DNA from: Magnetospirillum moscoviense
GTDB taxonomy: Bacteria > Pseudomonadota > Alphaproteobacteria > Rhodospirillales > Magnetospirillaceae
DNA length: 64,000 nt
Reading direction: 5' to 3'
NCBI RefSeq assembly: GCF_001650635.1
Contig: NZ_LWQU01000104.1
Location: 1-64,000, forward strand
Under the pieces are notes generated by a model. It had not been told where the DNA came from. It worked only from the letters and a program-made list of their open reading frames with translations, and searched no databases. Of this stretch, positions 32,728 to 61,553 are shown piece by piece. Within the stretch, counting starts at the first letter, position 1. The number at the start of each line of letters is the position of its first letter. The position numbers were made by a program, and so were the translations under genes.

Positions 32728-32733
32728 GCGGTC

Positions 32734-37031: not shown

Positions 37032-37033
37032 GG

Positions 37034-37720
37034 ATGATCGACGGAAAATCGGTCCTGGCGGTGATCGCGGCGCGCGGCGGCTCGAAGGGGCTGCCGCGAA
37101 AACATCTGCTTGATCTGGGCGGCCGTCCGGTGGTGGCGTGGAGCGTCGAGGCGGCCAAGGGGGCGGCCCTGCTCGACCGGGTGGTGTTGTCCACCGACGA
37201 CCAGGAAATCGCTGACGCCGCCGCCTTGGCCGGCTGCGAGGTGCCGTTCCTGCGTCCTGCCGAATTGTCCACCGACACCGTGCCGCTGGGGCCGGTCCTG
37301 CTGCATGCCCTCGACAGCCTGGGGGCCTATGATTATCTGGTGTTGCTGCAGGCGACCTCGCCGTTGCGGCTGGCATCGGACATCGACGCCTGTATCCGCC
37401 TGTGTCACGACAGCGGCGCGCCGGCGGTCATGTCGGTCTGCGTGGCGCCGAAATCGCCGTTCTGGATGTCCACCCTGGACGAGGACGGCCGCATGCGCCC
37501 GCTGCTGGCGGCGCCGACAGACGCCCAGCGCCAGCAATTGCCGACGGCCTATGTGCCCAACGGGGCGGTCTATGTGGCGCGGGTCGATGCCTTCCGCCAG
37601 CGGTTGGGCTTCAGCTTTCCCGACACCCGTGCCTATATCATGCCGGCCGAACGATCGATCGACATCGATTACCGCCTGGACCTGATGGTGGCCCGGGCTC
37701 TTGTGGCGGAGACATCATGA
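37034..37720 (+). CDS. legF: CMP-nonulosonate (legionaminate) cytidylyltransferase
   Basis: A 228-residue enzyme of the NeuA/LegF/PseF family. AARGGSKGLPRKH (12-24) is the CTP-binding signature, and LLQATSPLR near 110 and the C-terminal RSIDIDYRLDL are also typical. It activates the nonulosonic acid to the CMP sugar used by glycosyltransferases. The ATG at 37034 follows the radical SAM stop by 2 bases, with AGGA 9 bases upstream. It completes the legionaminic-acid set begun at 25.1 kb, and overlaps the deacetylase by ATGA. Confidence 0.9.
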   Translation: MIDGKSVLAVIAARGGSKGLPRKHLLDLGGRPVVAWSVEAAKGAALLDRVVLSTDDQEIADAAALAGCEVPFLRPAELSTDTVPLGPVLLHALDSLGAYDYLVLLQATSPLRLASDIDACIRLCHDSGAPAVMSVCVAPKSPFWMSTLDEDGRMRPLLAAPTDAQRQQLPTAYVPNGAVYVARVDAFRQRLGFSFPDTRAYIMPAERSIDIDYRLDLMVARALVAETS

Positions 37721-42558: not shown

Positions 42559-43607
42559 TGGTGCCGTTCCGGATCACCTATGCCTGGGAAACCAGCGATT
42601 GTCCCGGTCGGATCACCTTCGCCACCGAGCCGGCGGCCGATCTGGCGGCGGCGGTGATCAAGGCGGTTCGCCCGGTCCTGCCGGTCGCAGGGGCACGTTT
42701 GCGGGCCTTGTCGGCGGCGGCGGCGGCGGGAACCGCCATCGGCGGCTACGCCCTGACCGGTCCGGACGGCCAGTGGTTCCTGCGGATCACCTCGCATATC
42801 GGCACGGCCTCTTTGGAAAAGGCCCTGGTCGATGGCCTTGCGGCGGCCGGCGTTCCCGTCAACCCGATCCTGGCCGCCGGGATCGCCTTCGTGTGGCGCG
42901 GTCACCAATTGCGCCTCGATATCCGGCCTTTGGTCATGGCTCGCCATTTCGACGGTTCCGACGGCGATCTGGTGGCGCTGGGGCGGGTCATGGCGGCGGC
43001 GCACCGCGCGCTGGCCGAAACCACCGTCGCCCCAGAGGTCTGCCGTCTGGCGGCGACGCGCAACGACCGTCTGCGCGGGCACCGCGACCGGCTGGCCGAG
43101 GTGCTGCGCGGCGGCGGCGACCTCGCCGCGATGGGATTTCCGCCCGGTTGGGCCGAGCGCAATCGCGACTGGTTACAGCGTTGGTGCGCCGAGTACCGCC
43201 CCGACTGGCACCTGCAGCCGGGCGCCCAATGCCTGCATGGCGAAATTCATCAGGGGAACGTGCTCTATGACGGGGCGGGCACGGCCATATTAGTGGATTT
43301 CGAGGAAAGCACCGACGTGTTCGCACCGCCGGTATGGGATTTTGCCTATGCCGTACAGCGCTTCTGCCTGTTCGATCAGCCCGAGCGCGGCGTCTTTCTC
43401 GCGCGGCTTGGCCACCTGACCGCCGGATACGGCCGGACCATCGACGGATCGGGCGACGGCATGCGCCAGATCGCCTATCATTGCATGGCGACGCTGCTGG
43501 ACCTTTTCATCGAGCGGGGCTTGTCGTCGCCCGAAAGCGAGTTCGACAAGTTCGTGCAACTCGAGGGCCGTGCGGCCCGACTGGTACGCGATGGCTCCCT
43601 CTCCTGA
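42555..43607 (+). CDS. APH-family kinase-like protein with Glu in the catalytic loop
   Basis: A 350-residue protein of the aminoglycoside phosphotransferase/choline kinase-like fold. The catalytic loop reads LHGEIHQGN, with Glu230 in place of the usual Asp and Asn235 kept. The metal-binding DFE is at 248-250. Members phosphorylate small molecules, including sugars and amino alcohols. In this position it may phosphorylate the sugar used by the adjacent NeuB-like protein, or be catalytically altered. The start is GTG 42555 or ATG 42558, both at the previous stop. The 3' end overlaps the next gene by 17 bases. Confidence 0.7.
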   Translation: MMVPFRITYAWETSDCPGRITFATEPAADLAAAVIKAVRPVLPVAGARLRALSAAAAAGTAIGGYALTGPDGQWFLRITSHIGTASLEKALVDGLAAAGVPVNPILAAGIAFVWRGHQLRLDIRPLVMARHFDGSDGDLVALGRVMAAAHRALAETTVAPEVCRLAATRNDRLRGHRDRLAEVLRGGGDLAAMGFPPGWAERNRDWLQRWCAEYRPDWHLQPGAQCLHGEIHQGNVLYDGAGTAILVDFEESTDVFAPPVWDFAYAVQRFCLFDQPERGVFLARLGHLTAGYGRTIDGSGDGMRQIAYHCMATLLDLFIERGLSSPESEFDKFVQLEGRAARLVRDGSLS

Positions 43608-44694
43608 TTCTCCCTTCCACCTGCTGGTTTCCGCCCGTGATACGGGCGGGGCGGCGCACTTGCTGCCGGTCTTGCGGGCGGCGTCCTGCCGTGCCGGTTG
43701 GCGGGTCACGGTCACCGCCGCCATGCCGGCCTTCGAGGTTCTGCGCGCCGCCGGCATCGAGGTGGTGGCGGCGCCATCGGAAGAGGGCGAGGTGCTGGCC
43801 TTTGCCGCCGAGCTGGTGCGGTCCTGCCGGCCCGATGCCATTCTGTCCGGCCTTTCCGGCCAGGGGCGCGGCATCGACGAGGCCTTGGCCGCCGCCGCCG
43901 GCGCGATTCCCACCTTCGCGCTGCAGGATTATCCGGGCGACGTCAATCCGGGATGGGGGCCGGTGGCCTCGACCTTCCTGGTCGGCGACGCCGAGAGCGC
44001 GCGTCTGACCCACAAGGAAGTGCCCGGCAGTCAAACCCGGATCGTCGGCAATGTCCGTTTCGGCGCCTTGGCGGCGGCGGCTGATCCCATGGCCATGCGG
44101 GCTGCCGCCCGGGCTCGTCTGGGCGTCGCCGACGATCGCCCGGTGGTCGGCTTCTATGGGCAGTTCCTGGAAATCGACGGATATTGGCGGACCTTGTCCA
44201 CGCTGGGCGAAGCGTTGCGGGCCGTTCTTCCCGGTGCCCTGGTGGTTTTGCGGCCGCACCCGAAAGAAGAAGACGCCCGCAGGCTGCGGGCGATGGAATT
44301 GCTGGCCGGCGGGCTCGAGACCATCCTCGATCCCCTGGAGAGCGAGGAATCGGTCTGTGCCGCCGATGTCGCCACCACCTGCTTTTCGACCAGCCTCAAC
44401 ATCCTCAACTACTTCAACCGGGTTTCGCCCCGGCCGATGGGGGTGGGGCTCTACCTGCTTATGGATGCCGAGTTGGTGACATGGTATCACACCTACAATC
44501 GGCCCGACCGTCCGCCCCTGGCCGAACTGGCGCTTGAATGCCGCGAGGCCCGGACTTTGCCCGACCTTCTGACCAAGGCGGCCAGCGCCCTCGAGGCGAC
44601 CCGGCTGTGGACCGAGACCAACCGGGTGCTGGCCGCGCCGGCCGACGTCGCCGACAGCGTCTTGGAAATCGTGTCGGCAGGGGGAAGGCCATGA
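43591..44694 (+). CDS. Unclassified GT-B-like glycosyltransferase candidate
   Basis: A 367-residue soluble protein with two Rossmann-like halves. An N-terminal VSARDTGGAAHLLPVLRAA strand-loop-helix resembles the acceptor domain of UDP-GlcNAc epimerase/LpxB-like GT-B proteins. A central VVLRPHPKEED motif is a common GT-B donor-domain feature. No named family is recognised. The ATG at 43591 overlaps the kinase by 17 bases, and the end overlaps the ABC transporter by ATGA. Its place just before a lipid-linked-glycan flippase suits a late step of glycan assembly. Confidence 0.55.
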   Translation: MAPSPDSPFHLLVSARDTGGAAHLLPVLRAASCRAGWRVTVTAAMPAFEVLRAAGIEVVAAPSEEGEVLAFAAELVRSCRPDAILSGLSGQGRGIDEALAAAAGAIPTFALQDYPGDVNPGWGPVASTFLVGDAESARLTHKEVPGSQTRIVGNVRFGALAAAADPMAMRAAARARLGVADDRPVVGFYGQFLEIDGYWRTLSTLGEALRAVLPGALVVLRPHPKEEDARRLRAMELLAGGLETILDPLESEESVCAADVATTCFSTSLNILNYFNRVSPRPMGVGLYLLMDAELVTWYHTYNRPDRPPLAELALECREARTLPDLLTKAASALEATRLWTETNRVLAAPADVADSVLEIVSAGGRP

Positions 44695-46568: not shown

Positions 46569-47678
46569 ATGACCCGATCGCATTCGATGCCTGCGCCACG
46601 TACCGCCGTTGCCGACCCGACACTGACCCGTCCCGACTGGACCCGCGGAAGCCCGCGCGATCCCGCGCGGCTGTGGCTGGACAAGAACGAGAACTGGGAC
46701 CCCGAGCTGAACCGGGTGGTGGCCGAGGTGATGCGCGCCCTGCCGGCCGAGGCCTATTGCACCTATCCGGAATCGGCCCAGCTTTACGCCAAGCTGGCCG
46801 CCTGGGCCGGGGTCGAGCCGGGCAACCTGATGCTGGCCGCCGGTTCCGACGGGGTGATCCGTTCGGTGTTCGAGGCCTATGTCGAGCCCGGCGACACCGT
46901 CATCCACACCGTGCCGACCTTCGCCATGTATTCGGTCTACAGCCGCATGTACGGCGCCCGTGTCGTCGGCATCGAGTACGAACGTGGCTCCGACGGCCCG
47001 GTCTTGGCCATCGACCGGCTGCTGACGGCCATCCGCACCGAAGGCCCCAAGCTGGTGTGCCTGCCCAATCCCGACAGCCCGACCGGTACGGTGGTCCCGC
47101 CCGAGCAGTTGGAGTCCATCATCGCGGCGGCCGGCGAGGCCGGCGCCTTGATGCTGGTGGACGAGGCCTATCACCCCTTTCATCCCGACAGCGTGGTGCC
47201 GGCGATCGCGCGCTACCCGCACCTGGTGGTGTGCCGTTCGACCGGCAAGGCCTGGGGCATGGCCGGCATCCGCATCGGCTATGGCGTGGCCTCGCCCGAG
47301 GTCGCCAAGATCCTGCACAAGGTCCGTCCGATGTACGAGGTCGGCGCCGTGGCGGTGCACGCCTTCGAAGCCATGCTGGACCACGCCGATGCCATGCGGG
47401 CCTCGGTCGCCCGCCTCGAGGCCGGCAAGGCCCTGTTCCTGGCCGAGATGGAGACCCTGGGCTTCAAGGTCCTGAAGGGCGCCGGCAATTTCTGTCACGT
47501 CGCCTTCGGCGCCCATGCCGCCGCCATCCATGCCCGCCTCGACGGTCGGGTGATGTATCGCAAGGATTTCGCCGAGCCGTGCCTGGCCGGCTATTCCCGT
47601 TTTTCCGCCGCCACGCCCGAATTGTTCGCCCCGGTCATCGCCCTGATCCGCGCCGCAATCCAAGGAAACCGTCCATGA
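46569..47678 (+). CDS. HisC-like PLP-dependent aminotransferase
   Basis: A 369-residue fold-type I aminotransferase of the histidinol-phosphate group. The N-terminal LDKNENWDP, the cofactor-binding GSDGVIRSV, NPDSPTG, and the Schiff-base Lys227 in RSTGKAWGMAG are visible. It probably aminates a keto intermediate rather than making histidine, since sugar dehydrogenases and a cytidylyltransferase follow with 4-base overlaps. A 69-base gap precedes it, containing a 6-base-arm hairpin (46508-46521) and a weak TTGCCG/ATAAGG pair that could be an internal promoter. The ATG at 46569 has AAGAG 8 bases upstream. Confidence 0.8.
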   Translation: MTRSHSMPAPRTAVADPTLTRPDWTRGSPRDPARLWLDKNENWDPELNRVVAEVMRALPAEAYCTYPESAQLYAKLAAWAGVEPGNLMLAAGSDGVIRSVFEAYVEPGDTVIHTVPTFAMYSVYSRMYGARVVGIEYERGSDGPVLAIDRLLTAIRTEGPKLVCLPNPDSPTGTVVPPEQLESIIAAAGEAGALMLVDEAYHPFHPDSVVPAIARYPHLVVCRSTGKAWGMAGIRIGYGVASPEVAKILHKVRPMYEVGAVAVHAFEAMLDHADAMRASVARLEAGKALFLAEMETLGFKVLKGAGNFCHVAFGAHAAAIHARLDGRVMYRKDFAEPCLAGYSRFSAATPELFAPVIALIRAAIQGNRP

Positions 47679-48766
47679 GCGCCAATACCCTTGCCGTCGC
47701 CGTCATCGGCTGCGGCCGCATCGCCGGCCACCATTGCCGCTCGATCGCCGCCACCAGTGGCGTGCATCTGTCGGCGGTGTGCGATCTGGTGGCGGACAAG
47801 GCCCGCGCCTATGGCGAAGAATTCAACGTGCCGTATTACATCGACTACCGTGCCATGCTGCGCGCCCATCCGGAAATCTCGGTGGTGGCGGTGATCACGC
47901 CGTCGGGCATGCATGCCGAACACGCCACCGAGGTGATGGAACGCTGGGGCAAGCACGTCATCGTCGAGAAGCCGACCTTCATGACGCCATCGCAGCTGAA
48001 TGCCGCCTACGATCTGGCAGATCGTGTCGGCGTGCGCATCTTCCCGGTGTTCCAGAATCGCTACAACCTGGCGGTCCAGCGGGTCAAGCAGGCCATCGTC
48101 AGCGGCGAACTGGGCGCCATCCGCATCATGTCGGTGCGCACCCGCTGGTGCCGGCCGCAACGTTATTACGACCTGGCCCCCTGGCGCGGCACCTTCGCCC
48201 AGGATGGCGGCTGCCTGACCAACCAGGGCATCCACCATGTCGATCTGCTGCGTTACCTGGGCGGCGAGGTCGATAAGGTCAACGCCACCATGCGCACCCT
48301 GGGTGCCGAGATCGAGGTGGAAGACGCCGTGGTCGCCACCCTGACCTATCCGACCGGCGCCGTCGGCAATCTGGAAGTGACCACGGCGGCCCGACCCGAC
48401 GATTTCGAGGCATCCCTGTCCATCGTCGGCGAGAAGGGCCTGGCCCAGATCGGCGGCATCGCCGTCAACGAGCTGCAGATCTTCACCCCCGATCCCGCCG
48501 CCTGCACCCAGGCGTCTGAGGATTTCTCGCGCTGCGTCTACGGCTTCGGGCACGAGGCGATGTATCGCGACATCGCCGCCGATTTCCAGTCCGGCCGGCC
48601 CTATCCGGTGACCCGCGATGATTGCCTCTCCACCATCAAGCTGTTGAACGCCTTCTACCGCTCGGACGAGGCCGGCGGCTGGGTGGCGGTCGATGCCGAT
48701 GGCGAATCCACGCGCCTGGGCCGGCCCGACGAGGCCCTGGCCGATCTGTATCGGACCCCGGCATGA
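47675..48766 (+). CDS. Gfo/Idh/MocA-family dehydrogenase (first of two)
   Basis: A 363-residue NAD(P)-dependent sugar dehydrogenase. The Rossmann motif is GCGRIA (12-17) and the conserved Glu98-Lys99-Pro100 carries the catalytic lysine. A GIHHVDLLRYLGG segment near 190 provides the second catalytic histidine. Members oxidise a sugar or cyclitol hydroxyl (inositol dehydrogenase, WbpB/WlbA, KijD10). The substrate could be a nucleotide sugar or, given the cyclase homologue downstream, a cyclitol. It overlaps the aminotransferase and the second Gfo/Idh gene by ATGA. Confidence 0.85.
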   Translation: MSANTLAVAVIGCGRIAGHHCRSIAATSGVHLSAVCDLVADKARAYGEEFNVPYYIDYRAMLRAHPEISVVAVITPSGMHAEHATEVMERWGKHVIVEKPTFMTPSQLNAAYDLADRVGVRIFPVFQNRYNLAVQRVKQAIVSGELGAIRIMSVRTRWCRPQRYYDLAPWRGTFAQDGGCLTNQGIHHVDLLRYLGGEVDKVNATMRTLGAEIEVEDAVVATLTYPTGAVGNLEVTTAARPDDFEASLSIVGEKGLAQIGGIAVNELQIFTPDPAACTQASEDFSRCVYGFGHEAMYRDIAADFQSGRPYPVTRDDCLSTIKLLNAFYRSDEAGGWVAVDADGESTRLGRPDEALADLYRTPA

Positions 48767-49806
48767 GCACGCCCCTTCGCGTCGGAATCGCCGGCTTCGG
48801 CGTCGTCGGCAAGCGCCGCCGCCAGTTCATCGACCTTCGTTGCGATATGAAAACGGTCGCGGTGTGCGACCGCACCTTCGAGTCCGAGGGCCGGCTGGCC
48901 GACGGCGTGCGCCATTACCGCACCCCCGAGGCGTTGCTGGACAATGAAAGCCTGGACGTCTTGTTCGTCTGCCTGACCAACGAGGTGGCGGCCGACGTCA
49001 CCATCGCCGGCCTGGACAAGGGGCTGCATGTCTTTTGCGAGAAGCCGCCGGGCCGCGACGTTTCCGACATCGAGCGGGTCATCGAAGCCGAGGCCCGTCA
49101 CCCCGACCTTCGCCTGAAATACGGCTTCAACCACCGCTATCACGATTCGGTGCGCGACGCGCTGGCCATCGTCGCCTCGGGCGAGATGGGCGATGTGCTC
49201 AACATGCGCGGCGTCTACGGCAAGTCGCAATTCATCTCTTTCGGGGCGCATTCCGACTGGCGCACCCAGCGCGCCGTGGCCGGCGGCGGCATCCTGCTCG
49301 ACCAGGGCATCCACATGGTCGATCTGATGCGGCTGTTCGGCGGTGAATTCCACGAGGTCAGCAGCATCGTCTCGAACGATTTCTGGGGCCACGACATCGA
49401 GGACAACGCCTACGCGCTGATGCGCTCGGAAACCGGCTGCGTCGCCATGCTGCATTCGACCGCCACTCAATGGCGGCATCGTTTCAATCTCGAAATTACC
49501 TGTCGCAAGGGGGCCTTGATCCTGTCGGGCATCCTGTCGGGGTCGAAATCCTATGGCGCCGAGACCCTGTCGGTGGTGTGGGCCGGCGAAGACGACCAGG
49601 GCGACCCCAAGGAACAGACCACCCGCTATAACCGGGATCCCAGCTGGGCCGACGAAATCGCCGAATTCGCCGACGCGGTGCTGCGCGGCGGGGCCATCAG
49701 TGCCGGCTCGTCGGCCGACGCCCTGGCCACCATGCAACTGGTCTATCGCATCTATTGCGCCGATCCCCAGTGGAAGGCGCGCTGGAATCTGGAGTGCCCG
49801 TCATGA
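48763..49806 (+). CDS. Gfo/Idh/MocA-family dehydrogenase (second of two)
   Basis: A 347-residue NAD(P)-dependent dehydrogenase with Rossmann GFGVVG (11-16), Glu93-Lys94-Pro95, and a DQGIHMVDLMRLFGG segment near 185. It is clearly of the same family as its upstream neighbour but divergent in sequence, so the pair probably act at different carbons or on successive intermediates. It overlaps the upstream and downstream (KdsB-like) genes by ATGA. The substrate is not evident. Confidence 0.85.
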   Translation: MSTPLRVGIAGFGVVGKRRRQFIDLRCDMKTVAVCDRTFESEGRLADGVRHYRTPEALLDNESLDVLFVCLTNEVAADVTIAGLDKGLHVFCEKPPGRDVSDIERVIEAEARHPDLRLKYGFNHRYHDSVRDALAIVASGEMGDVLNMRGVYGKSQFISFGAHSDWRTQRAVAGGGILLDQGIHMVDLMRLFGGEFHEVSSIVSNDFWGHDIEDNAYALMRSETGCVAMLHSTATQWRHRFNLEITCRKGALILSGILSGSKSYGAETLSVVWAGEDDQGDPKEQTTRYNRDPSWADEIAEFADAVLRGGAISAGSSADALATMQLVYRIYCADPQWKARWNLECPS

Positions 49807-50573
49807 GCAAGATCATCGGCCTGATCCCCGCCCGCATGGCGGCCAGCCGTTTCCCCGGCAAGCCGTTGTTTCCCATCTTCGGCCGCCCGATGATCGAGCA
49901 TGTGTTCGAGCGCGCCCGGCTGTTCCCGCGCTGGGATGTCCTGGCCATCTGCACCTGCGACGAGGAAATCAAGGCGTTCGGCGAATCCAAGGGCTATCCG
50001 GTGATCATGACCGCCGACACCCACACCAGGGCGCTGGACCGGGTCGCCGAGGCTGCCACCAAGTGCGGCGTGGATGTGGCCGAAGACGACATCGTGCTGA
50101 ATGTCCAGGGCGACGAGCCGATGATGCATCCCGATATGATCGCCGCCACCATCAAGCCGATGGAAGAGCGCGCAGGCGAGGTGCGCGGCACCATGCTGGC
50201 CATGGACATCATTGACGAGGCGCAGTTCAAGAACCCCGACGCCCTGAAGATCATCCACGATCTGTCGGGCCGGGTGCTCTATACCTCGCGCCAGCCCATT
50301 CCGCATTGTAAACAATTCTCGCCCGAGCTGGGGGCCAAGCGCATCTATGGCATCTTCGGCTTTCGCTGGGATTTCCTGAAACTGTTCACCAGCCTGGCGC
50401 CCAGCCCGCTGGAGATCAAGGAAGCCTGTGATTCCAACCGGCTTTATGATTACGGCCATCACCAGCACATCGCGCCCTATCCGTTCCAGCCCAGCTATTC
50501 GGTCGACAGCCCGCACGATATCGGCATCGTCGAGGCCGCGATGCAGGCTGATCCGCTGTGGGGCCGCTATTGA
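49803..50573 (+). CDS. KdsB-like CMP-sugar cytidylyltransferase
   Basis: A 256-residue enzyme of the CMP-Kdo synthetase family. The CTP-binding IPARMAASRFPGKPL (8-22) and Mg-binding NVQGDEP (about 99-105) are well kept. The C-terminal half departs from housekeeping KdsB: the usual TPEDLE end reads SPHDIGIVE. KdsB activates 3-deoxy-ulosonic acids at the anomeric carbon. No other Kdo gene is nearby, and the flanking aminotransferase, dehydrogenases and cyclase suggest a specialised substrate, as with KdsB variants for 8-amino-Kdo. Confidence 0.8.
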   Translation: MSKIIGLIPARMAASRFPGKPLFPIFGRPMIEHVFERARLFPRWDVLAICTCDEEIKAFGESKGYPVIMTADTHTRALDRVAEAATKCGVDVAEDDIVLNVQGDEPMMHPDMIAATIKPMEERAGEVRGTMLAMDIIDEAQFKNPDALKIIHDLSGRVLYTSRQPIPHCKQFSPELGAKRIYGIFGFRWDFLKLFTSLAPSPLEIKEACDSNRLYDYGHHQHIAPYPFQPSYSVDSPHDIGIVEAAMQADPLWGRY

Positions 50574-51646
50574 CCGGCTGGACCGACCTGCTGGCGAGGG
50601 ACGCCGCCACCACCTTGCGCTGCCCGGCCTGCCGGGCGGGGGCGCTGGCGGTGGATTCCGACGCCCTGGTCTGTTCGTCGTGCGGGGCGCGCCATCCGCT
50701 GGATCGCGAGCGTCAGGTGGCGGCCTTGTTCGCCGCCGCTTCCCATGGCGGGTTGAAGGACGATATCCGCGCCTGGTGGGGCGATTTGTACGAACAGCTT
50801 TACGGCCCGACCGACCGCTCGCTGAACCCTGAGCGGCTGGAAGCCATGCTGACCGACACCGAGGACCTGTTCCGTGTCCGCGAGATGCTGCCTGTGGTCG
50901 AGATGCCGCTGGCCGAGCTGGCCGGCAAGAGCGTCCTGGAGATCGGCCCCGGCGGCGGCGCCCATTCCTGCCTGTTCAAGCGCTATGGCGCCTCGGTGAC
51001 GGCGGTGGACATCACGCCGGAACGGGCCATCTCGACCGCGCTGAAGTTGGGGCTGGTCACGGGCGGCGAGGGCCGCGCCTATAACGCCGACGCCGAGAAC
51101 CTGCCGTTTAGGGATGCCAGCTTCGACATCGTCTATTCCAACGGCGTGCTGCACCATTCCCAAGACACCGACAAGACCATCGCCGAGGTGTTTCGGGTCC
51201 TGAAGCCGGGCGGAAGAGCGGTGCTGATGCTCTATGCCCGCCATTCGGCCATCTTCTGGGGGACCATCGTCCCTTTGGGCCTGGTGCGCGGCGAGATGTT
51301 CCGCTGGCCCGAGGCCCAATGGGTCGGCCGCGTCACCGAAGGCAAGCCCAAGCACGGCCAGACCAGGAACCCGTTCACCCGGATTTATTCCGCTGCAGAA
51401 CTGGACCGCCTGCTGTCAGCGTTCCCGCTGCGGCGCTATCGCAAAAGCAGCTTTCAATGGGATAATTTCGCCATCCCGCGCCTGACCCAGATCCGGCGCA
51501 AGGTGCTGGGCTGGCTGGGCCGGGCCGCCCATCCCGGCGGCGTCTTGATCTATGGCGCCCCCTTCGTGTCGGAAACCAAGACCGAGCTGGCGCTGGGCCG
51601 CCATATCGGCTTTGCCTGGAACATCGTGGCGGAGAAACCGGCATGA
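50570..51646 (+). CDS. SAM-dependent methyltransferase with N-terminal zinc ribbon
   Basis: A 358-residue protein. A small zinc ribbon (Cys18-x2-Cys21, Cys35-x2-Cys38) precedes a class I methyltransferase core with motif I VLEIGPGGG at 122-130 and a SNGVLHHSQD motif near 190. Such proteins commonly O- or N-methylate sugars or lipids. The start is taken as TTG 50570 in ATTGA overlap with the KdsB-like stop; GTG 50558 is a close alternative. The acceptor is probably the sugar made by this module. Confidence 0.75.
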   Translation: MTGWTDLLARDAATTLRCPACRAGALAVDSDALVCSSCGARHPLDRERQVAALFAAASHGGLKDDIRAWWGDLYEQLYGPTDRSLNPERLEAMLTDTEDLFRVREMLPVVEMPLAELAGKSVLEIGPGGGAHSCLFKRYGASVTAVDITPERAISTALKLGLVTGGEGRAYNADAENLPFRDASFDIVYSNGVLHHSQDTDKTIAEVFRVLKPGGRAVLMLYARHSAIFWGTIVPLGLVRGEMFRWPEAQWVGRVTEGKPKHGQTRNPFTRIYSAAELDRLLSAFPLRRYRKSSFQWDNFAIPRLTQIRRKVLGWLGRAAHPGGVLIYGAPFVSETKTELALGRHIGFAWNIVAEKPA

Positions 51647-52362
51647 TTCTTCCTTTGACCGGCAAATTGGCGGTGGTCACCGGCGGCACGCGCGGCATCG
51701 GCGCCGCCATCGCCGCGCGTCTTCTGGCCGACGGCGCCCGCGTGCTGGTCACCGGCACCCGGCCAGGCGGGCAGGGGCCGCAGGGAGCCGATTATTTCGC
51801 CGCCGACTTCGCCGATCCGGACCAGTTGGAAGGCTTCGCCACCCAGTTGGCCGGCCTGGGGGCCGATATCCTGGTCAACAATGCCGGCATCAACAAGGTC
51901 CAGCCCTTCGCCGAGATCGATCCCGCCGATTTCGCCCGCATCCAGCAGGTCAACGTCACCGCTCCGCTTCGCCTGATGCAGGCGGTGCTGCCCGGCATGC
52001 GGGCCAAGGGCTGGGGCCGGGTGGTCAATGTCGGCTCGATCTGGGGAGTGGTCTCGAAGGCCGGGCGCGGCAGCTATTCGGCCGCCAAGTTCGCCCTGGA
52101 TGGCCTGACGGCGGCGGCGGCGGCCGAAGTGGCGGCCGACGGCGTGCTGGTCAACGGCGTCGCACCCGGCTTCATCGACACCGAGCTGACCCGCAGCGTG
52201 CTGGGCGAGGCCGGCATCCAGGAATTGGTGGCGCAGGTCCCGGCCAGGCGCCTGGGCCGCCCGGACGAGATCGCCGCCTTCGTCGCCTGGCTGGCCGGGC
52301 CGGACAATTCCTTCATCTCGGGCCAGACCATCGCCATCGACGGAGGGTTCACCCGTGTCTGA
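51643..52362 (+). CDS. Classical short-chain dehydrogenase/reductase
   Basis: A 239-residue classical SDR of the FabG-like group. TGGTRGIG is at 13-20, NNAG near 79-82, and the catalytic set is Ser132, Tyr145 and Lys149. It reduces or oxidises a ketone/alcohol with NAD(P). Location between a KdsB-like enzyme and the cyclase homologue makes reduction of a keto sugar or keto-cyclitol likely. It overlaps the upstream gene by ATGA and the downstream gene by 8 bases. Confidence 0.87.
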   Translation: MILPLTGKLAVVTGGTRGIGAAIAARLLADGARVLVTGTRPGGQGPQGADYFAADFADPDQLEGFATQLAGLGADILVNNAGINKVQPFAEIDPADFARIQQVNVTAPLRLMQAVLPGMRAKGWGRVVNVGSIWGVVSKAGRGSYSAAKFALDGLTAAAAAEVAADGVLVNGVAPGFIDTELTRSVLGEAGIQELVAQVPARRLGRPDEIAAFVAWLAGPDNSFISGQTIAIDGGFTRV

Positions 52363-53434
52363 CGGCTTGACCATCCAGTCGCACAAGGGGCCTTACCGGG
52401 TTCATTTCGATGTCGATGCGTTGGCGCGACTGAACGCGTCGGTGCCCGAAGGCGCCCATTTCCTGGTGGATGCCCGGGTGGCCGAGCTTTACCGCGACCG
52501 GATGGGCCATGTGCTGGCGAGCCGAAGCGTCCTGCTGATCGAGGCGACCGAGGCGGCCAAGTCGCTGGAACGCTTTCCCGCCTATGTCGAGCATCTGGTG
52601 GCGAACGGTCTGCGCCGCGACCATGTGCTGGTGGCCATCGGCGGCGGCATCTTGCAAGACATCACCTGTTTCCTGTCGGCGACCATGCTGCGCGGCGTCG
52701 ATTGGCGCTTCTACCCCACCACCTTGCTGGCCCAGTGCGATTCCTGCATCGGCTCGAAATCCTCGATCAATTGCGGCGACGCCAAGAACATCCTGGGCAC
52801 CTTCACGCCGCCCCGGGACATCTTCCTGTCCACCCGCTTCCTCGCCACACTTGACCCGCGCGAGATCCGGTCCGGCATCGGCGAGATGCTGAAGGTCCAC
52901 ATGATCGCCGGCCCCGCCGATTTCGCCGCCATCGCCCAATCCTACGATTCCCTGTGGACCCAGCCCACGGTGATGGAAGCCACCATCCGCCGCGCACTGG
53001 AGATCAAGCAAGGCTATATCGAGAAGGACGAGTTCGATACCGGCCCGCGCCTGGTCTTCAACCTGGGCCATTCCTTCGGCCACGCCATCGAGGCGGCCAC
53101 CGACTTCGCCGTGCCGCACGGCATCGCCGTCACCATCGGCCTGGACATGGCCGGCTGGATGAGCTGGCGCCTGGGATCGGGAGCCAAGGAATATTGGTGC
53201 CAGGCGCGGCCGGTCCTGGCCCGCAACTATGCCGGCTATCAATCGGTGCCGGTGCCGCTGGACCGCTTCCTGGCCGCACTCGCCAAGGACAAGAAGAATG
53301 TCGGCCAGGGCTCGGCCACCTTGATCCTGCCTGGACCCGATGGTCAGGTGGCGCGGGCCATCCACATCATCGACGAGCCCTTCCGCCGCTTGTGCGCCGA
53401 ATTCCTGGACAAGGTGCGCCCGCATGACCCGTGA
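52355..53434 (+). CDS. 3-dehydroquinate-synthase-like sugar-phosphate cyclase
   Basis: A 359-residue protein of the sugar-phosphate cyclase/dehydroquinate synthase superfamily. NAD-binding GGGILQD is at 96-102. The zinc ligands Glu177, His239 and His255 (GEMLK, LGHSFGH, PHGIA) and Lys135/Asn139 regions are present. The usual D-E-[R/K]-E-x-G-L-R segment reads DEFDTGPR (225-232), with Phe227 for Arg/Lys and Pro231 for Leu. That argues against plain dehydroquinate synthase and for a cyclase with another substrate (as in EEVS or DOIS types). No other aromatic-pathway gene is near. The GTG start has GGAGG 7 bases upstream. Confidence 0.8.
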   Translation: MSDGLTIQSHKGPYRVHFDVDALARLNASVPEGAHFLVDARVAELYRDRMGHVLASRSVLLIEATEAAKSLERFPAYVEHLVANGLRRDHVLVAIGGGILQDITCFLSATMLRGVDWRFYPTTLLAQCDSCIGSKSSINCGDAKNILGTFTPPRDIFLSTRFLATLDPREIRSGIGEMLKVHMIAGPADFAAIAQSYDSLWTQPTVMEATIRRALEIKQGYIEKDEFDTGPRLVFNLGHSFGHAIEAATDFAVPHGIAVTIGLDMAGWMSWRLGSGAKEYWCQARPVLARNYAGYQSVPVPLDRFLAALAKDKKNVGQGSATLILPGPDGQVARAIHIIDEPFRRLCAEFLDKVRPHDP

Positions 53435-54386
53435 CACCACCACCCGAGTTGCCGTCGCCTCGCGATCCTTCTCGCGCCACCCGATCCTGCGGGCCGAGCT
53501 GCTGGAACGTTACGAACACGTTACGTTCAACGATGCCGGTGTGTCGCTGGCTGGCGAGGCCCTGATCGAGTTTCTGGCTGAGCACGACAAGGCGATCACC
53601 GCCCTGGAAAAGCTGGATGAGGCGATTCTGGTCCGCCTGCCGGAATTGAAGGTTGTCGGCAAGTACGGCGTCGGGCTGGACATGATAGACCTGGCGGCAC
53701 TCGGCCGAATGGGCAAGAAGCTGGGCTGGACCGGCGGTGTCAACAAGCGCTCGGTGTCGGAGCTGGTGATTTCGGCGGCCATCGCCCTGTTGCGCCATGT
53801 CCCCCAGGGCAACGCCCTGGTGCGTGACGGCGGCTGGCGGCAATTGATGGGACGGCAATTATCCCAGCGCAGTGTCGGCATCGTCGGCTGCGGCCATGTC
53901 GGCAAGGACCTGGCGGTGCTGCTGAAGGCGTTCGGCTGCCGGGTGCTGGCGCACGACATCCAGGATTTCGCCGATTTCTACGCCACCCATGGCATCGAGA
54001 AGATGGGGCTGGACGCCCTGCTGGCCGAAGCCGACATCGTGACGCTGCATCTGCCGCTGGACGGCTCGACCCGAAACATCCTGCCGGCCGACAAGCTGGG
54101 TCTGATGCGCCGGGGCTCGATCTTGATCAACATGGCCCGCGGCGGTCTGGTGGACGAGGCCGCGATCAAGGCGATGCTGGCCGACGGCCATCTGGCCGGG
54201 GCCGCCTTCGACGTCTTCGCCGAGGAACCGCCGGTGGACTTCGACCTTCTGCGTCACCCCAACATGCTGGCCCTGCCCCATATCGGCGGCTCGGCGGAAG
54301 AGGCGGTGCTGGCCATGGGCCGCGCCGCCATCGCCGGGCTGGACAATGCCCGCGACCCGCTGGATTTCGTGGGACAGGGCGGATGA
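53424..54386 (+). CDS. D-2-hydroxyacid dehydrogenase (phosphoglycerate-dehydrogenase-like)
   Basis: A 320-residue member of the D-isomer-specific 2-hydroxyacid dehydrogenases. NAD-binding GCGHVG is at 155-160, and the catalytic residues are Arg239, Glu268 and His286. It oxidises or reduces an α-hydroxy acid/α-keto acid. Serine biosynthesis is unlikely in this setting. It might build a precursor or modify the carboxylate end of the module's sugar. It overlaps the cyclase by 11 bases and the next methyltransferase by ATGA. Confidence 0.85.
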   Translation: MTRDTTTRVAVASRSFSRHPILRAELLERYEHVTFNDAGVSLAGEALIEFLAEHDKAITALEKLDEAILVRLPELKVVGKYGVGLDMIDLAALGRMGKKLGWTGGVNKRSVSELVISAAIALLRHVPQGNALVRDGGWRQLMGRQLSQRSVGIVGCGHVGKDLAVLLKAFGCRVLAHDIQDFADFYATHGIEKMGLDALLAEADIVTLHLPLDGSTRNILPADKLGLMRRGSILINMARGGLVDEAAIKAMLADGHLAGAAFDVFAEEPPVDFDLLRHPNMLALPHIGGSAEEAVLAMGRAAIAGLDNARDPLDFVGQGG

Positions 54387-55060
54387 GTGGCGGCGAACAC
54401 AACGCCCGGGCCTGGGGACACGTAGTCGATTTTTTCGACCACGAGCGGGCCACCAGCGCCCAGGTCTATGCCTCGGAATGGTTCTTCCTGAAGGACCTGC
54501 TGAAAGACGGCATCAGCGTTCTGGATGTCGGCTGCGCGCAAGGCGGCTTCGCTGGCGTGATGGCCGAGAACCTGAAGGATTTCCGCTATACCGGCATCGA
54601 CATCAGCGCCGAGATGATCGCCAAGGCCAAGACCCGCCACCCCCAGGCCGAGTTCCACCATGTGGGCGAGTCCGACTGGTCTGCCATCGCCGGGCGCCAG
54701 TTCGATCTGGTGCTGGTGCTGGGCATCTTGCATCTGCACGAAAGCTGGCGCGACACCATCGCCCAGGCTTGGGCGCACACTGCCGGCACCTTGCTGATGG
54801 ATCTGCGCGAACATGAAGGCCCGACCATCGAGGACAAGGCGGTATCGTCGTTTCGGATGGATTTCGGCGGCGACGAGGCCGGTGCCGCCGTGCGGCTGCC
54901 TTATGTTATCGTCAATGCCGCCGAGGCGCTGGCGGTGGTCCGCCGGTCCTGCGACGGGGTCTCGCGTCTCAGCCATTACGGCTATTATCATCCGGTTTCG
55001 GGGGCGGCGGAGACGCCGGTGGACAAGGTCATGGCCAACGTGTGGTGTGCGCAGCGATGA
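54383..55060 (+). CDS. Class I SAM-dependent methyltransferase
   Basis: A 225-residue methyltransferase. Motif I VLDVGCAQGG is at 46-55, followed by GIDISAEMI (acidic ribose-binding loop) and LVLVLGILHLHE (motif IV). The acceptor is unknown; sugar O-methylation is likely from context. ATGA overlaps on both sides tie it to the dehydrogenase and the next methyltransferase-like gene. Confidence 0.8.
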   Translation: MSGGEHNARAWGHVVDFFDHERATSAQVYASEWFFLKDLLKDGISVLDVGCAQGGFAGVMAENLKDFRYTGIDISAEMIAKAKTRHPQAEFHHVGESDWSAIAGRQFDLVLVLGILHLHESWRDTIAQAWAHTAGTLLMDLREHEGPTIEDKAVSSFRMDFGGDEAGAAVRLPYVIVNAAEALAVVRRSCDGVSRLSHYGYYHPVSGAAETPVDKVMANVWCAQR

Positions 55061-55926
55061 ATGTGATCGGACTGGCTAAAGCCGTCGGACTGGATACCCG
55101 GGCCCTCTATCAGCGGCTGTCGGCCGCCAGCGTTCGGGCCGCCGTGGCGGAACAGGGGCTTGCGGATGTCTATCAGCGGCTCGAGGCGGTTATCCCCGAC
55201 ATTGCCGATCAATATACCGGCGGCTTCGATCCCCAGGAATACCAGCGCTACTGGAAGATCAAGATGCGGGGCCTGCATGCCTGGCAGGTCAGCCTGATGC
55301 TGGATGCGGTCCGGCATCTGGGGCGGCCCGGCCTGGTCCTGGCCGACATCGGCGATTCGTCGGGCAACCATGCCCGCTATCTGCAGGCCTTGGCGCCGAA
55401 AGACGCGGTGGCGCGGGTGGTGTCGGTCAACCTGGACCCGGTGGCTGTGGACAAGGTTACCGCCAAGGGCGGCGACGCCATCTTGTGCCGGGCCGAGGAG
55501 ATGGACCTGGCCGGAATCCGCCCGGATCTGTTCATGACCTTCGAGATGGTCGAGCACCTGACCGATCCCTTGCGCTTTCTGCATCGCCTGGCCGAAAGCG
55601 GCAGCGCCGACCATTTGCTGATGACGGTGCCGTGGCGGCGCGACAGTCGTTTCGGCGGCGCCGATTTGCGCATGTCCGACGACCGCATGGCCGCTCGCTG
55701 GACCGCCGAGGAACTGCATATCTTCGAGCTTCGCCCGGATGACTGGCTGCTGCTGGCGCGGTTGGCCGGCTGGCGGCCGGTGCTGACCCGGCTTTACCGG
55801 CAATATCCGGTGCGCTCGCCCTTGGTGGCGCTGCGGCCGATATGGCGGGCGCTGGATTTCGAGGGATTCTGGGGCGTCTTGTTATGCCGCGACCTGTCGG
55901 TCGCCAACCGCTATGACGCGTGGTGA
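55057..55926 (+). CDS. Methyltransferase-like protein
   Basis: A 289-residue protein with a helical N-terminal region (about 1-85) and a class I methyltransferase-like core. Motif I is irregular (LADIGDSSGNHARYL, near 94-108), and FEMVEHLTDP near 165 resembles motif IV/post-IV. A VPWRRDSRFGG segment follows. It probably methylates a sugar or lipid-linked glycan, but substrate and activity are open. It begins at the ATG overlapping the preceding stop and is followed after 7 bases by a small membrane-protein gene. Confidence 0.68.
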   Translation: MNVIGLAKAVGLDTRALYQRLSAASVRAAVAEQGLADVYQRLEAVIPDIADQYTGGFDPQEYQRYWKIKMRGLHAWQVSLMLDAVRHLGRPGLVLADIGDSSGNHARYLQALAPKDAVARVVSVNLDPVAVDKVTAKGGDAILCRAEEMDLAGIRPDLFMTFEMVEHLTDPLRFLHRLAESGSADHLLMTVPWRRDSRFGGADLRMSDDRMAARWTAEELHIFELRPDDWLLLARLAGWRPVLTRLYRQYPVRSPLVALRPIWRALDFEGFWGVLLCRDLSVANRYDAW

Positions 55927-58090: not shown

Positions 58091-59991
58091 TCGGCGTTCC
58101 GGCGGCCCTGCTTTTGAACCTGTCGGCCTGCTTCGGCGGCGGCGCCCTGCTGCTGCGGCTCTTGGGTCTGACTCCAGGGATGCCCGCCGCCCTGGCCGCC
58201 GTCCTGGCCTTTCCGCTGGGATTGGGGCTGGTCGGCTGGCTGGTCTTCTTCCTGGCCTGGCAGGGCTGGCTTCACGCCGCGATCCTGATTTCGATACTGC
58301 TTGGACTGTCGGTGGGTGTGGTGGCGCTGCCGCGTCCGGTTCGGGTTGTGTCATTCACGGCGCCGGAACGGCTGTTGGCGCTGGTCCTGCTGGTGGTGGT
58401 CGCCCTTTATGTCGTCGTGGCGCTGGGGCCGCCGGCCGATGCCGACACGCTGGCCTATCATTTCGCCCGGCCCCGGCAGATCCTGGCCGACGGGCGGCTG
58501 ATCCTGGTGCCTCGGGCCATCGATGGCGTCACCCAGCTTCTGGTGCAGATGGCCTATCTGCCGGCCTTGGCCCTGGGGGGCGAGCGGGCCTTGACCCTGT
58601 GGGCCATGGTGACCGGGCTGATGCCGGTGGCGCTGGTGGCGGTGCTGGCCGGGGGATGGCTGCCGCGCGCCTGGTGCCTGGCTCTGGCCGCCGCCCTGCT
58701 GAGCATGCCGGCCTGGATGTTCGGCGCCTCGGGCGGGCAGGTCGAGACCCGGCTGGCCGGCTTTGCCGTGCTTGCCGCCTATGCGGTGGCCCGCGCCTGG
58801 CGCGAGCCCGGCTGGCGATGGGAATTGCTGGCCGGCCTGGCGGCGGGGTTCTATGCCGGCGGCAAGACCCTGGGATTGCTGCTGATCGCAGCCACCGGGC
58901 TGGTTTTGTTGGCCCGCAGGCGGTTCGCGCCGCGGGCGGTGCTGGGATATGGCGTCGCGGCGGCCCTGGCCGGCGGCCAGTGGTATCTGTGGAACTGGAG
59001 CCAGACCGGCGACCCGGTGTTTCCGATGGCGTTCGGCGCCCTGGGGCTGGCCGACGGTCCGCTGTGGAGCGCCGCGCATCACGACATCTTCCGCTCGTTG
59101 TTCTTCCCCGCGGAAAATCCCGAGACGCCCGGCATCGGCCTGGCGCTCGCTTATCCGGTTCGGGCGATTCTGGGGTGGGGCCCGGCGATGTGGGAGGCAG
59201 GCCGGTCCGGTCCCGGACCCCTGTTGCTGATCCTGGCCCCCTTTGCCGTGGCCGGCCTGATCCGTCACCGCGACCGGCTGACGACCAGCCCCCTGACGCC
59301 GATGGTCGCCATCGCCTTGCTGTTCTATCTGGCGTGGATCATGACGGCGTCGTCGCAGCGCATCCGCCACCTCGTGCCGGTCCTGCCGCTGCTGGCCCTG
59401 GGGGCGATGGTGGCGGCCGAGCGCGGCGCCGGCTGGCTGGGGGTCAAACGCCCCATGGTGGCGGGCCTGGCCCTGCTGGTGCTGGTTCAAATGGCCGGCC
59501 AGGGGGTGTTCGCCGCCGCCTATCTGCGCCATCTGGTCAGCGTCGAAAGCCGCGAGGACTTTCTGGAGCGGGCCGTCGCCGGCTATCCCCTGGCCCGCTG
59601 GCTGAACGGGCATCTGGGGCGCGACGACAAGGTGATGTTGTCGGAACGTCAATTGTCCTATCACCTGAACGTGCCCTATTACATCGCCAGCGAGATCTTA
59701 CAGGCTCGCATCGACATGCGCCGCTCGGGCGCCGACCCCGCCGCGCGGTGGAGCCAGATGCGCAGCCTGGGGATCACCCATATCGCCGGCGAGGAGGTTC
59801 CCGCCGACGGCCGGCCGGTTTCGGCCTGGCAGCAGCTGACCGCCGACCTGACCGCCAAAGGCTGCGCCCGCCGCGAGGCCGAAGTGAGCTGGCGCTGGGT
59901 CTTTTCGCGGGCGCTGCCGGGCCTGGGCTCGGCCGAGACCCGCACCCTGATTCTGGCCCTGACGCCAGCCACCTGCCTCTACGGTCGCTGA
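58087..59991 (+). CDS. Second polytopic GT-C-type membrane glycosyltransferase
   Basis: A 634-residue protein with about 12 membrane helices and a C-terminal soluble domain (about 490-634). PPADADTLAYHF (near 115-127) is the counterpart of NDYDSLMYHL in the upstream protein, so both carry an acidic first-loop motif and a downstream YH. It is a paralogue of similar length. The two may add different sugars or act as a pair. The ATG at 58087 overlaps the small gene's stop; an earlier in-frame start would run through that gene. The next gene begins at its stop (TGATG). Confidence 0.72.
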   Translation: MIGVPAALLLNLSACFGGGALLLRLLGLTPGMPAALAAVLAFPLGLGLVGWLVFFLAWQGWLHAAILISILLGLSVGVVALPRPVRVVSFTAPERLLALVLLVVVALYVVVALGPPADADTLAYHFARPRQILADGRLILVPRAIDGVTQLLVQMAYLPALALGGERALTLWAMVTGLMPVALVAVLAGGWLPRAWCLALAAALLSMPAWMFGASGGQVETRLAGFAVLAAYAVARAWREPGWRWELLAGLAAGFYAGGKTLGLLLIAATGLVLLARRRFAPRAVLGYGVAAALAGGQWYLWNWSQTGDPVFPMAFGALGLADGPLWSAAHHDIFRSLFFPAENPETPGIGLALAYPVRAILGWGPAMWEAGRSGPGPLLLILAPFAVAGLIRHRDRLTTSPLTPMVAIALLFYLAWIMTASSQRIRHLVPVLPLLALGAMVAAERGAGWLGVKRPMVAGLALLVLVQMAGQGVFAAAYLRHLVSVESREDFLERAVAGYPLARWLNGHLGRDDKVMLSERQLSYHLNVPYYIASEILQARIDMRRSGADPAARWSQMRSLGITHIAGEEVPADGRPVSAWQQLTADLTAKGCARREAEVSWRWVFSRALPGLGSAETRTLILALTPATCLYGR

Positions 59992-61553
59992 TGCCGGTCC
60001 TTTTGCACCATACCGGGGACATTCCCCCAAGCGGTTGGGACGAGTGGTGCGCCGTCGCCGGCTGCAATGCCGACCTTCCCGGCGGCAAGCCGACGGCTCG
60101 CGCCCTGGCCGAGGCCTATGATGCCGTCTTGCCGGAATGGTGGCGGCTGGCCGCCGAACTGGGCCGCCAGCCATCGGCAATTCTGTCCCACGCCTGCACC
60201 GCCGGCGGCAATGTATCCGATCTCGGGCTGATGCTGGCCTGGTCTCGCCTGGTCGGCGGCTGGGCGGCCGGTGGCGATCGCGTTTTGTGCCTGTGCGACG
60301 ATCCTTGGCTGTTTCGCCATCTGGCGACCTTGCCGGGGGTGACGGCCGGGGCGGCACCGTCTCTGGCCGGAACCGCGCTGCGTCTGGGGCTGCGCGGCTG
60401 GCTGGCACGGGCGCGGGTGGCGGTCCGCATGGCGCGGGCGGCTTGGCGGGGGCGCGGGGCCGCCTGCGCCGTTCCCCCTGGGCGGCCGGCGATGCTGGTC
60501 TATGGCCATCCGGCCAGCCGGCCCGACGGGTTCGACGCCTATTTCGGCCAGCTGGCCGAAATTGTTCCTGAAGTACAACGAATTCTGCACGTCGATTGCC
60601 CGCCTTCCCGCGCCGCCGAACTGGGGGTCGGACTGCATGGCTGGGGCTCGATGGCTGCCGCCCTGGCCCTGGTGTTTCGCCGGTGGCGCCCGCAGGTGTC
60701 GGGGCCGCTGACCTGGCTGGTCCGTCGCGCCGCCGCCCACGAGGGCGCCACCGGCACGCCGGCGATGATCGCCTGGCAAATCCATTGTCAGCGGCGCTTC
60801 CTGGCGGCGGCGCGGCCGGTTCTGGTGGCTTGGCCGTGGGAAAACCATGCCTGGGAACGCGCTTTCGTCCGCCACGCCAGGGCCGGTGCCATCCGGACCC
60901 TGGGCTATCAGCATGCCACCATCGGCAGCCTGGAAAGCAATTACGCAATCCATTCCCTACCGGACGGCGTGGCGGCCCTGCCCGACAGCATCGCCTGCGC
61001 CGGCCCGGCCAGCCGTGATCGGCTGGTCGACTGGGGGGTGCCGGCGGACCGCCTGTGGATCGGCGGCGCCTGGCGCTTCCCCACCCCCACGCCGTTGCCG
61101 TGGGCGGCCGACGGGGCGATCTTCCTGCCCCTTCCGGCCCAGATCGGGGTGGCGAGGCAGATGTTGGCGGCGGCTCGGGCGGCGACGGCCCATGGCTGGC
61201 GCTTTCTGGTGCGCGAGCATCCGATGACCTCGGTCGGCTTTCATCCCGAGCCCGGCCTGGACCGCAGCCCGGGGCCGTTGTCCCGGTCCGGCCCTTTGCG
61301 GGTGGTGCTCTTTGCCGGCAGTTCCGTGGGGCTCGAGGCCCTGCTGGCGGGCTTGCCGGCCATCCGTTTCCTGCCGCAGGGCCTGCTGGCCAACGATATC
61401 CTGCCGCCGGGGCTGGCGGTGCCGGCGGCGACCGCCGATGAATTGCCCGACCGTCTGGCCGCCTGCGCCAGGCCCGAGCCGTTGGACGCCGCCGGGATTT
61501 TCGCCGAAATCGATCGCGCGCAGTGGCGATGCCGGGTGGGAGAACCGTCATGA
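59991..61553 (+). CDS. Unclassified GT-B-like surface carbohydrate protein
   Basis: A 520-residue soluble protein. An N-terminal α/β region (to about 190) is followed by a region with HATIGS (near 310) and a C-terminal FAGSSVGLEALLAGLPAIRFL segment (near 440-460), which resembles the nucleotide-binding end of GT-B capsule/polysialic-type transferases. It shares the C-terminal pattern of the proteins at 34.1 and 39.4 kb. No family name is justified. It is coupled to both neighbours (TGATG and ATGA) and precedes a heparinase-family lyase. Confidence 0.55.
   Translation: MPVLLHHTGDIPPSGWDEWCAVAGCNADLPGGKPTARALAEAYDAVLPEWWRLAAELGRQPSAILSHACTAGGNVSDLGLMLAWSRLVGGWAAGGDRVLCLCDDPWLFRHLATLPGVTAGAAPSLAGTALRLGLRGWLARARVAVRMARAAWRGRGAACAVPPGRPAMLVYGHPASRPDGFDAYFGQLAEIVPEVQRILHVDCPPSRAAELGVGLHGWGSMAAALALVFRRWRPQVSGPLTWLVRRAAAHEGATGTPAMIAWQIHCQRRFLAAARPVLVAWPWENHAWERAFVRHARAGAIRTLGYQHATIGSLESNYAIHSLPDGVAALPDSIACAGPASRDRLVDWGVPADRLWIGGAWRFPTPTPLPWAADGAIFLPLPAQIGVARQMLAAARAATAHGWRFLVREHPMTSVGFHPEPGLDRSPGPLSRSGPLRVVLFAGSSVGLEALLAGLPAIRFLPQGLLANDILPPGLAVPAATADELPDRLAACARPEPLDAAGIFAEIDRAQWRCRVGEPS

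Follow-up and report, generated by a model that had tools for sequence, protein, structure and literature searches.

Ten successive plus-strand genes at positions 46569-55926 of a 64,000-nucleotide stretch of Magnetospirillum moscoviense DNA (positions 1 to 64,000 of contig NZ_LWQU01000104.1; "the window" is this whole stretch) form a conserved pathway with a cytidine monophosphate (CMP) transferase, adjoining a surface-glycan locus. The operon contains a sugar phosphate cyclase, CYC, which keeps the listed substrate-pocket residues of a dehydroquinate synthase (DHQS). In related loci the cyclase and its partner reductase are replaced by a HAD hydrolase on a shared gene backbone. We propose that the product of the operon is an acidic carbocycle, activated with CMP and destined for a surface glycan, a reading that on genomic evidence is plausible if not quite probable. 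Its bolder form, held somewhat more tentatively, is a natural carba-ulosonic acid: the ring oxygen of a CMP-activated sugar acid would be replaced by carbon through a cassette swap, and the product built into surface glycans.

The ends of neighbouring genes overlap by 4-16 bases, and the first frame has an alternative earlier start, TTG at 46545. An initial annotation had described ten consecutive overlapping genes of the classes given below; coordinates, Pfam and NCBIfam bear this out, Pfam families backing every class and that of MT3 weakly. In Paramagnetospirillum caucaseum (L033) the gene order recurs for nine of the ten, at 66-88% identity; no match was found there for MT3. Because relatives repeat the same genes in similar order, the operon is not a chance collection. 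The features are as follows.

46569..47678, plus strand: AT, HisC/CobD-like pyridoxal phosphate-dependent aminotransferase (PF00155, Aminotran_1_2, 152.6 bits; hisC 212 bits, under the cut-off of 276.6)
47675..48766, plus strand: GFO1, Gfo/Idh/MocA dehydrogenase (PF01408/PF22725/PF02894)
48763..49806, plus strand: GFO2, Gfo/Idh/MocA dehydrogenase, the most constant partner (GFO_IDH_MocA Pfam)
49803..50573, plus strand: KDSBa, KdsB-like CMP transferase (PF02348, CTP_transf_3, 130.2 bits against a cut-off of 22.6)
50558..51646, plus strand: MT1, S-adenosylmethionine (SAM) methyltransferase (Methyltransf_11, 82.6 bits)
51643..52362, plus strand: SDR, reductase paired with the cyclase (adh_short_C2, 163 bits)
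52355..53434, plus strand: CYC, sugar phosphate cyclase of family TIGR04425 (DHQ_synthase and DHQS_C; 460.2 bits against a cut-off of 400)
53424..54386, plus strand: DHDH, D-2-hydroxyacid dehydrogenase (2-Hacid_dh; 2-Hacid_dh_C, 176.5 bits)
54383..55060, plus strand: MT2, SAM methyltransferase (Methyltransf_12, 54 bits)
55057..55926, plus strand: MT3, probable SAM methyltransferase (Methyltransf_11, 23.6 bits, barely above the cut-off of 21.2)
59991..61553, plus strand: GTX, conserved neighbour and, from its position only, candidate transferase

GTX has no Pfam match; TIGR04326 (surface carbohydrate biosynthesis protein) matches it only weakly and in part, at 50.5 bits where the cut-off is 250. 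The best PDB matches of GFO2 include inositol dehydrogenases and glucose-fructose oxidoreductase. In DHDH the Arg of ARGGLVDE, the second Glu of FAEEPP and the His of ALPHIGG, which we take to be the catalytic residues, are kept in 50/50 homologues.

Cyclase family and substrate pocket

The NCBIfam model that CYC passes, TIGR04425, is a hypothetical equivalog named "AroB-related putative sugar phosphate phospholyase (cyclizing)", a name that gives no substrate. The module had looked undescribed in the initial annotation; its cyclase family was already named, though with no assigned function. CYC stays under the aroB cut-off (233.7 against 305 bits), and a second DHQ_synthase gene of the same genome (G000:C140) has the stronger Pfam match (160.3 against 111.3 bits for CYC). 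The protein of that second gene groups with AroB in a tree of 81 rows, and CYC does not. Instead, 51 TIGR04425-type cyclases stand on one side of a branch of length 1.02 and support 99, opposite 25 AroB, one 2-deoxy-scyllo-inosose synthase (DOIS), one sedoheptulose 7-phosphate (S7P) cyclase, two EboD and one further DHQS-family protein; this tree, like the others here, was quick and carries SH-aLRT support only, and several long branches meet in it, DOIS among them. DOIS and S7P cyclase are labelled by record annotation, one EboD by a neighbouring eboE and the other by similarity. CYC groups with none of these three comparator types. The phylogeny proposed as a check by the initial annotation thus places CYC outside the housekeeping AroB clade, in a genome with its own aroB; the aroB elsewhere, the score below the aroB cut-off and the separate clade rule out CYC as the housekeeping AroB.

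A passage on Staphylococcus aureus DHQS lists 11 residues that form the pocket for 3-deoxy-D-arabino-heptulosonate 7-phosphate (DAHP; PMC6262012), and CYC keeps all 11 on that list, as do 43 of the 51 full-length TIGR04425-type members, CYC included. The comparators lose two to five of the listed residues. The single S7P cyclase has Met, Ala, Asp, Pro and Glu at K221, R235, N239, H246 and K314, where CYC has K, R, N, H and K; the single DOIS has Gly and Glu at R235 and N239; and the two EboD have His, Ala/Ser, Asp and Glu/Gln at K221, R235, N239 and K314. The Arg235 and Asn239 positions are therefore lost in every DOIS, EboD and S7P comparator. Positions of this type presumably hold the substrate carboxylate. 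An AlphaFold2 model of CYC (pLDDT 90.9) has DHQS structures as its best PDB matches, with DOIS from rank 18. Since the listed DHQS pocket is retained, the substrate is likelier to be a carboxylated 2-ulosonate 7-phosphate than either sedoheptulose 7-phosphate or glucose 6-phosphate; on this reading CYC has kept a carboxylate-bearing, DAHP-like substrate. Second cyclase copies in L108 (11889-) and L126 (538-) both have Tyr for the listed His246, and are possibly inactive or changed in function.

The family also has residues of its own: Gln for Gly in GGGxxGD (giving GGGxxQD) and Cys for Ser in DSS (giving DSC) in 52/52 members each, and Ser for Gly before the pocket Lys (GSK) in 45/52. The complete listed pocket would suit a redundant DHQS as well, with the operon diverting dehydroquinate or quinate into the glycan. 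The separate aroB, the separate clade and the score under the aroB cut-off argue against this, as do Gln and Cys in every member where the genome's AroB has Gly and Ser, and we consider it very unlikely.

Gene co-occurrence and exchange of the cyclase cassette

Loci were gathered by one scan of genome contigs (16 loci) and by whole-genome searches. TIGR04425 gave 5 genomes over its cut-off among 398 of the phylum, and CYC matched at E <= 1e-60 in 35 of 317 genomes of the order. Among these 317, GFO2 occurs in 80 and KDSBa in 59; GFO2 and KDSBa coincide in 54 (Fisher p 6e-35), CYC and GFO2 in 30 (p 1e-15) and CYC and KDSBa in 22 (p 5e-10), values that ignore shared descent. GFO2 and KDSBa are found in 35 genomes with no cyclase hit (none at E <= 1e-60). 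Twenty of these, and two with GFO2 and no KDSBa hit, provided 22 cyclase-free loci, chosen for GFO2 (22) and mostly for KDSBa (20), with HAD, DHDH and GFO1 not selected for; L187, L189, L190 and L192 were left out. The 45 cyclase loci set against them, 15 of which are shorter than 15 kb, leave out L079 (3.1 kb), L055 (AroB), five loci of another context (context B; L044, L047 and L051-L053) and, as repeats, short search loci, L095, L097, L098, L110, L115, L118, L119 and L125. Genomes of alpha-, beta-, zeta- and gammaproteobacteria and of Bacteroidota contribute the named cyclase loci, and Elusimicrobia more distant ones; plasmid and phage collections gave only matches under 60% identity (115 and 15 records), which were used as comparators.

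The 45 cyclase loci contain SDR in 40, DHDH in 33, GFO2 in 29, KDSBa in 19, GFO1 in 14, AT in 13, and the CMP transferase KDSBb and a GmhA-like isomerase in nine each. In the 30 that are not under 15 kb the counts are SDR 30, GFO2 25, DHDH 25, KDSBa 15, GFO1 13, AT 12, KDSBb 9 and HAD 0. Three of the five loci missing SDR (L092, L102, L048) end at a contig edge beside the cyclase. A search for neighbouring DHQS-like and KdsB-like genes, suggested by the initial annotation, finds such a pair in 28 of the 45, counting KDSBa and KDSBb; two more cyclase loci (L043, L050) have a NeuA-like CMP transferase beside the unit. MT1 relatives occur in 11/45 cyclase and 8/22 cyclase-free loci, and GTX in 20/45 and 18/22, whereas MT2 (11/45 versus 0/22), MT3 (9/45 versus 0/22) and AT (13/45 versus 1/22) lean to the cyclase.

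The two locus types share a backbone of GFO2, KdsB-like enzyme and hydroxyacid dehydrogenase and differ in what it carries. SDR is present in 40/45 cyclase loci and 0/22 cyclase-free loci; a HAD hydrolase is present in 0/45 and 20/22, respectively. The one HAD protein tested is phosphoglycolate-phosphatase-like, scoring under the cut-offs of those models. HAD follows KDSB (or GFO2) and precedes DHDH in loci that have one, which is the place of SDR-CYC in the window. Two same-genus genomes, G520 (L114) and G522 (L212), align across HpcH-KDSB-GFO2 (~2.5 kb) and DHDH (~0.9 kb) at 73-74% DNA identity; between these stretches the alignment is interrupted where one has SDR-CYC (~1.8 kb) and the other an acyltransferase-like frame with HAD (~1.75 kb). 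In the KDSB tree, well-supported branches require no fewer than 3 and 4 changes of the CYC and HAD labels, and cassette type clusters (4 changes, where shuffles give 17.2); the minimum is 6 changes on the GFO2 tree, 7-8 on that of DHDH and 3-4 on that of GFO1. The cassette was likely, if not provably, exchanged more than once. In G526 (L092), a same-genus genome, KDSB is 97% and GFO2 95% identical to those of the window and the cyclase just 74%, a pattern that resembles an exchange of cassettes between cyclase alleles.

Each enzyme type, HAD phosphatase or sugar phosphate cyclase, uses up a phosphate ester, so the two probably share a substrate; one phosphorylated intermediate with two exits is the simplest reading of the swap. 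Two alternatives came from the initial annotation, a CMP-activated (amino)cyclitol and an unusual ulosonic acid. The CMP transferase and the conserved unit stand, and these alternatives appear as two outputs of one backbone, cyclase loci suggesting a carbocycle and phosphatase loci an ulosonic acid.

The near restriction of AT to cyclase loci, together with the GmhA-like isomerase in nine of them, would also fit a classical aminocyclitol, in which CYC acts on sedoheptulose 7-phosphate like 2-epi-5-epi-valiolone synthase (EEVS) and GFO1, AT and the methyltransferases yield a methylated aminocyclitol. The isomerase gene lies in several loci between or beside GFO2 and SDR-CYC, and the PDB entries it matches best are phosphoheptose isomerases. 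No SIS_2 isomerase-type gene lies in the window operon; two are on the same contig (G000:C104:81720-82085, L061, and 85417-85803, L060), ~18-21 kb past the window end. The listed pocket positions lost in the S7P cyclase (one comparator, named from its record annotation) are intact in CYC, the CYC clade is separate from S7P cyclase and EboD, and both the HAD swap and the KdsB-type activation speak for an acid. We consider this route improbable; a classical aminocyclitol made from sedoheptulose 7-phosphate or glucose 6-phosphate is not supported, since the pocket on the list is of the DAHP type.

The KdsB-like genes fall into pairs with their neighbours. GFO1 is found in 33 of 39 loci with KDSBa and in 0/11 loci having only KDSBb, and an HpcH/HpaI-type protein is found in 12/12 KDSBb loci, adjoining KDSBb or, in L211, in the same open frame (the L043 protein was identified by Pfam, those of KDSBb loci by similarity to it or to each other). 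GFO1 with KDSBa and HpcH with KDSBb thus look like interchangeable pairs, each seen with HAD and with SDR-CYC. This would suit a glycan with two sugars, where either pair makes a CMP-ulosonate and GFO2, DHDH and HAD or SDR-CYC make a residue not carried by CMP. Yet KDSBa sits between GFO2 and the cassette in the operon, and loci of one cassette type tend to group on the KDSB tree, which would follow if KDSB acted on the cassette product but likewise from shared descent of whole loci. Two separate sugars therefore seem doubtful to us.

A possible route to a CMP-activated ring acid

Each reaction below, together with its substrate, ring closure, carbon number and CMP site, is one that we infer from what sequence establishes: the operon, its families, the clades, the pocket residues, the phosphatase swap and the co-occurrence. 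A seven-carbon, DAHP-like 2-ulosonate 7-phosphate would be formed, here perhaps through oxidation by a Gfo/Idh enzyme and DHDH. Modelled on the DHQS reaction, CYC would oxidise it with NAD and eliminate phosphate, and C7 would close onto C2 to give a dehydroquinate-like ring acid, whose ring ketone SDR would reduce. GFO1 and AT may introduce an amine, as the near restriction of AT to cyclase loci suggests, and the methyltransferases may add methyl groups. The KdsB-like enzyme would then add CMP, in the simplest case to the tertiary hydroxyl next to the carboxylate, a group that in the carbocycle takes the part of an ulosonate's anomeric hydroxyl, and a glycosyltransferase, possibly GTX, would transfer the residue.

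By motif and clade, KDSBa is set apart from housekeeping KdsB. It passes one of five kdsB-named NCBIfam models (NF003952, 200.9 against 193 bits) and stays under the other four, including the equivalog TIGR00466 (150.2 against 155.2 bits). It keeps the NVQGDEP region and reads HTRALDR where the housekeeping copy of its own genome reads HPSGSDR (SG[TS]DR being the KdsB hallmark among the housekeeping copies compared here), and its clade is apart from those copies with support 100. The genome has four CTP_transf_3 genes, and the canonical kdsB at G000:C104:167934 groups with the housekeeping clade; its motif and clade rule out KDSBa as the genome's only KdsB-type enzyme. The initial annotation had worried that KDSBa might be the sole CMP-Kdo synthetase (Kdo, 3-deoxy-D-manno-oct-2-ulosonic acid), and this housekeeping copy settles the matter.

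The swap and the activation step can also be read with no ring closure: CYC would oxidise and eliminate phosphate, SDR would yield a 7-deoxy ulosonic acid, and KDSB would activate a pyranose ulosonate, with CMP on a true anomeric hydroxyl. The pairing of SDR with CYC in 40/45 loci (a contig end interrupts three of the remaining five) suits this, as does the HAD swap, and the family-specific GGGxxQD, DSC and mostly GSK adjoin pocket residues. All 11 listed DHQS pocket residues are kept, however, and once the enolate has formed the ring is generally considered to close readily; we consider this alternative unlikely.

Several observations weigh against the carbocycle that we propose. The origin of the ulosonate phosphate is its weakest step, and the DHDH route is kept as a weak one. 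DHDH is missing in 12/45 cyclase loci and 5/22 cyclase-free loci; among nine genomes checked whose locus has no DHDH, two (G424, G412) have copies of 61-65% identity elsewhere, six have homologues of just 39-45% and one has none at E <= 1e-60. DHDH is thus dispensable, and the ulosonate may not arise by oxidation, or only partly so. The HpcH protein of all KDSBb loci is an aldolase that this route does not need. A DUF386/YhcH-type gene occurs in two Bacteroidota loci; the YhcH family includes sugar-acid anomerases, and as an anomerase is superfluous for a carbocycle, the gene suits a pyranose. As KDSBa passes NF003952, Kdo or a close relative may be its substrate, and no precedent came to light in which a tertiary carbocyclic alcohol carries CMP. 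Within the cyclase family, the listed Lys181 is His in six distant members, and the L126 cyclase and the second copy in L108 have two listed pocket positions changed each. Well-supported branches of the GFO2, DHDH and GFO1 trees force just 1-2 cassette exchanges, and GFO2 was not found in 5/35 cyclase genomes, in all five of which the cyclase locus is on a contig under 9 kb.

Class II aldolases of the HpcH/HpaI type make or break 2-keto acids. The HpcH association fits a 2-ulosonate phosphate as cyclase substrate and leaves DHDH in KDSBb loci unexplained. The five context-B loci have distant TIGR04425-like cyclases, with a weaker HpcH-type protein directly before SDR-CYC in 5/5 (Pfam on two), RfbF/RfbG-like CDP-glucose genes and a thiamine pyrophosphate enzyme; there were no GFO2, KDSB or DHDH hits in these five. 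Their product is perhaps a branched or carbocyclic CDP-sugar.

Further surface-glycan genes lie upstream in the window. Positions 26109-37720 hold legionaminic/neuraminic-type nonulosonic acid genes: NeuC and NeuB over their cut-offs, a LegC-like aminotransferase (386 against 420) and a PseF-like cytidylyltransferase under theirs, and a WbuX amidotransferase (over cut-off) with HisF/HisH-like genes, suggesting an acetamidino modification. A second, divergent NeuB-family protein with a SAF domain, NEUB2 (41500-42558), lies just upstream of an ABC exporter and the operon; after it come an APH-type kinase (42555-43607) and an unassigned protein (43570-44694). Among the relatives' loci compared, one beyond the window showed a match to NEUB2, weakly.

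Relation to known systems

If the proposed carbocycle is right, it would give an unassigned cyclase family a role and make CMP one more nucleotide that carries products of such cyclases; an acidic sugar would have a carbocyclic mimic, made as a glycan building block, that should resist glycosidases. The swap of phosphatase for cyclase and reductase on one backbone makes the question testable in closely related strains that differ in cassette. The TIGR04425 family name was found in no open-licence PubMed Central paper, and no title among the matches listed from that literature named a CMP-activated carbocycle.

CYC shares with AroB its fold and all 11 residues of the listed DAHP pocket, and differs in its separate clade, its Gln, Cys and Ser substitutions and an operon with SDR and a CMP transferase. 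Pathways of EEVS and DOIS likewise join a cyclase to dehydrogenases and an aminotransferase, but the comparators examined here (one DOIS, one S7P cyclase and two EboD) lose 2-5 of the 11 listed residues. A nucleotide-activated cyclase product has been described in the acarbose pathway, where, in the part of PMC9200736 that deals with it, GDP-valienol is used with a pseudoglycosyltransferase; the nucleotide enzyme described there uses GTP on a cyclitol 1-phosphate, whereas the window has a KdsB-like CMP transferase. CMP-ulosonate pathways of the KdsB and NeuA type have in common with the operon a CTP_transf_3 enzyme that activates a sugar acid; the operon differs in having no phosphoenolpyruvate-dependent ulosonate synthase, in TRALDR for SGSDR and in the presence of a cyclase. 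The 8-amino-Kdo pathway is another KdsB-related CMP-ulosonate route. As a TIGR04425 member, CYC makes the system a sugar phosphate cyclase joined to a CMP-sugar pathway, an arrangement partly foreseen by the NCBI family name.

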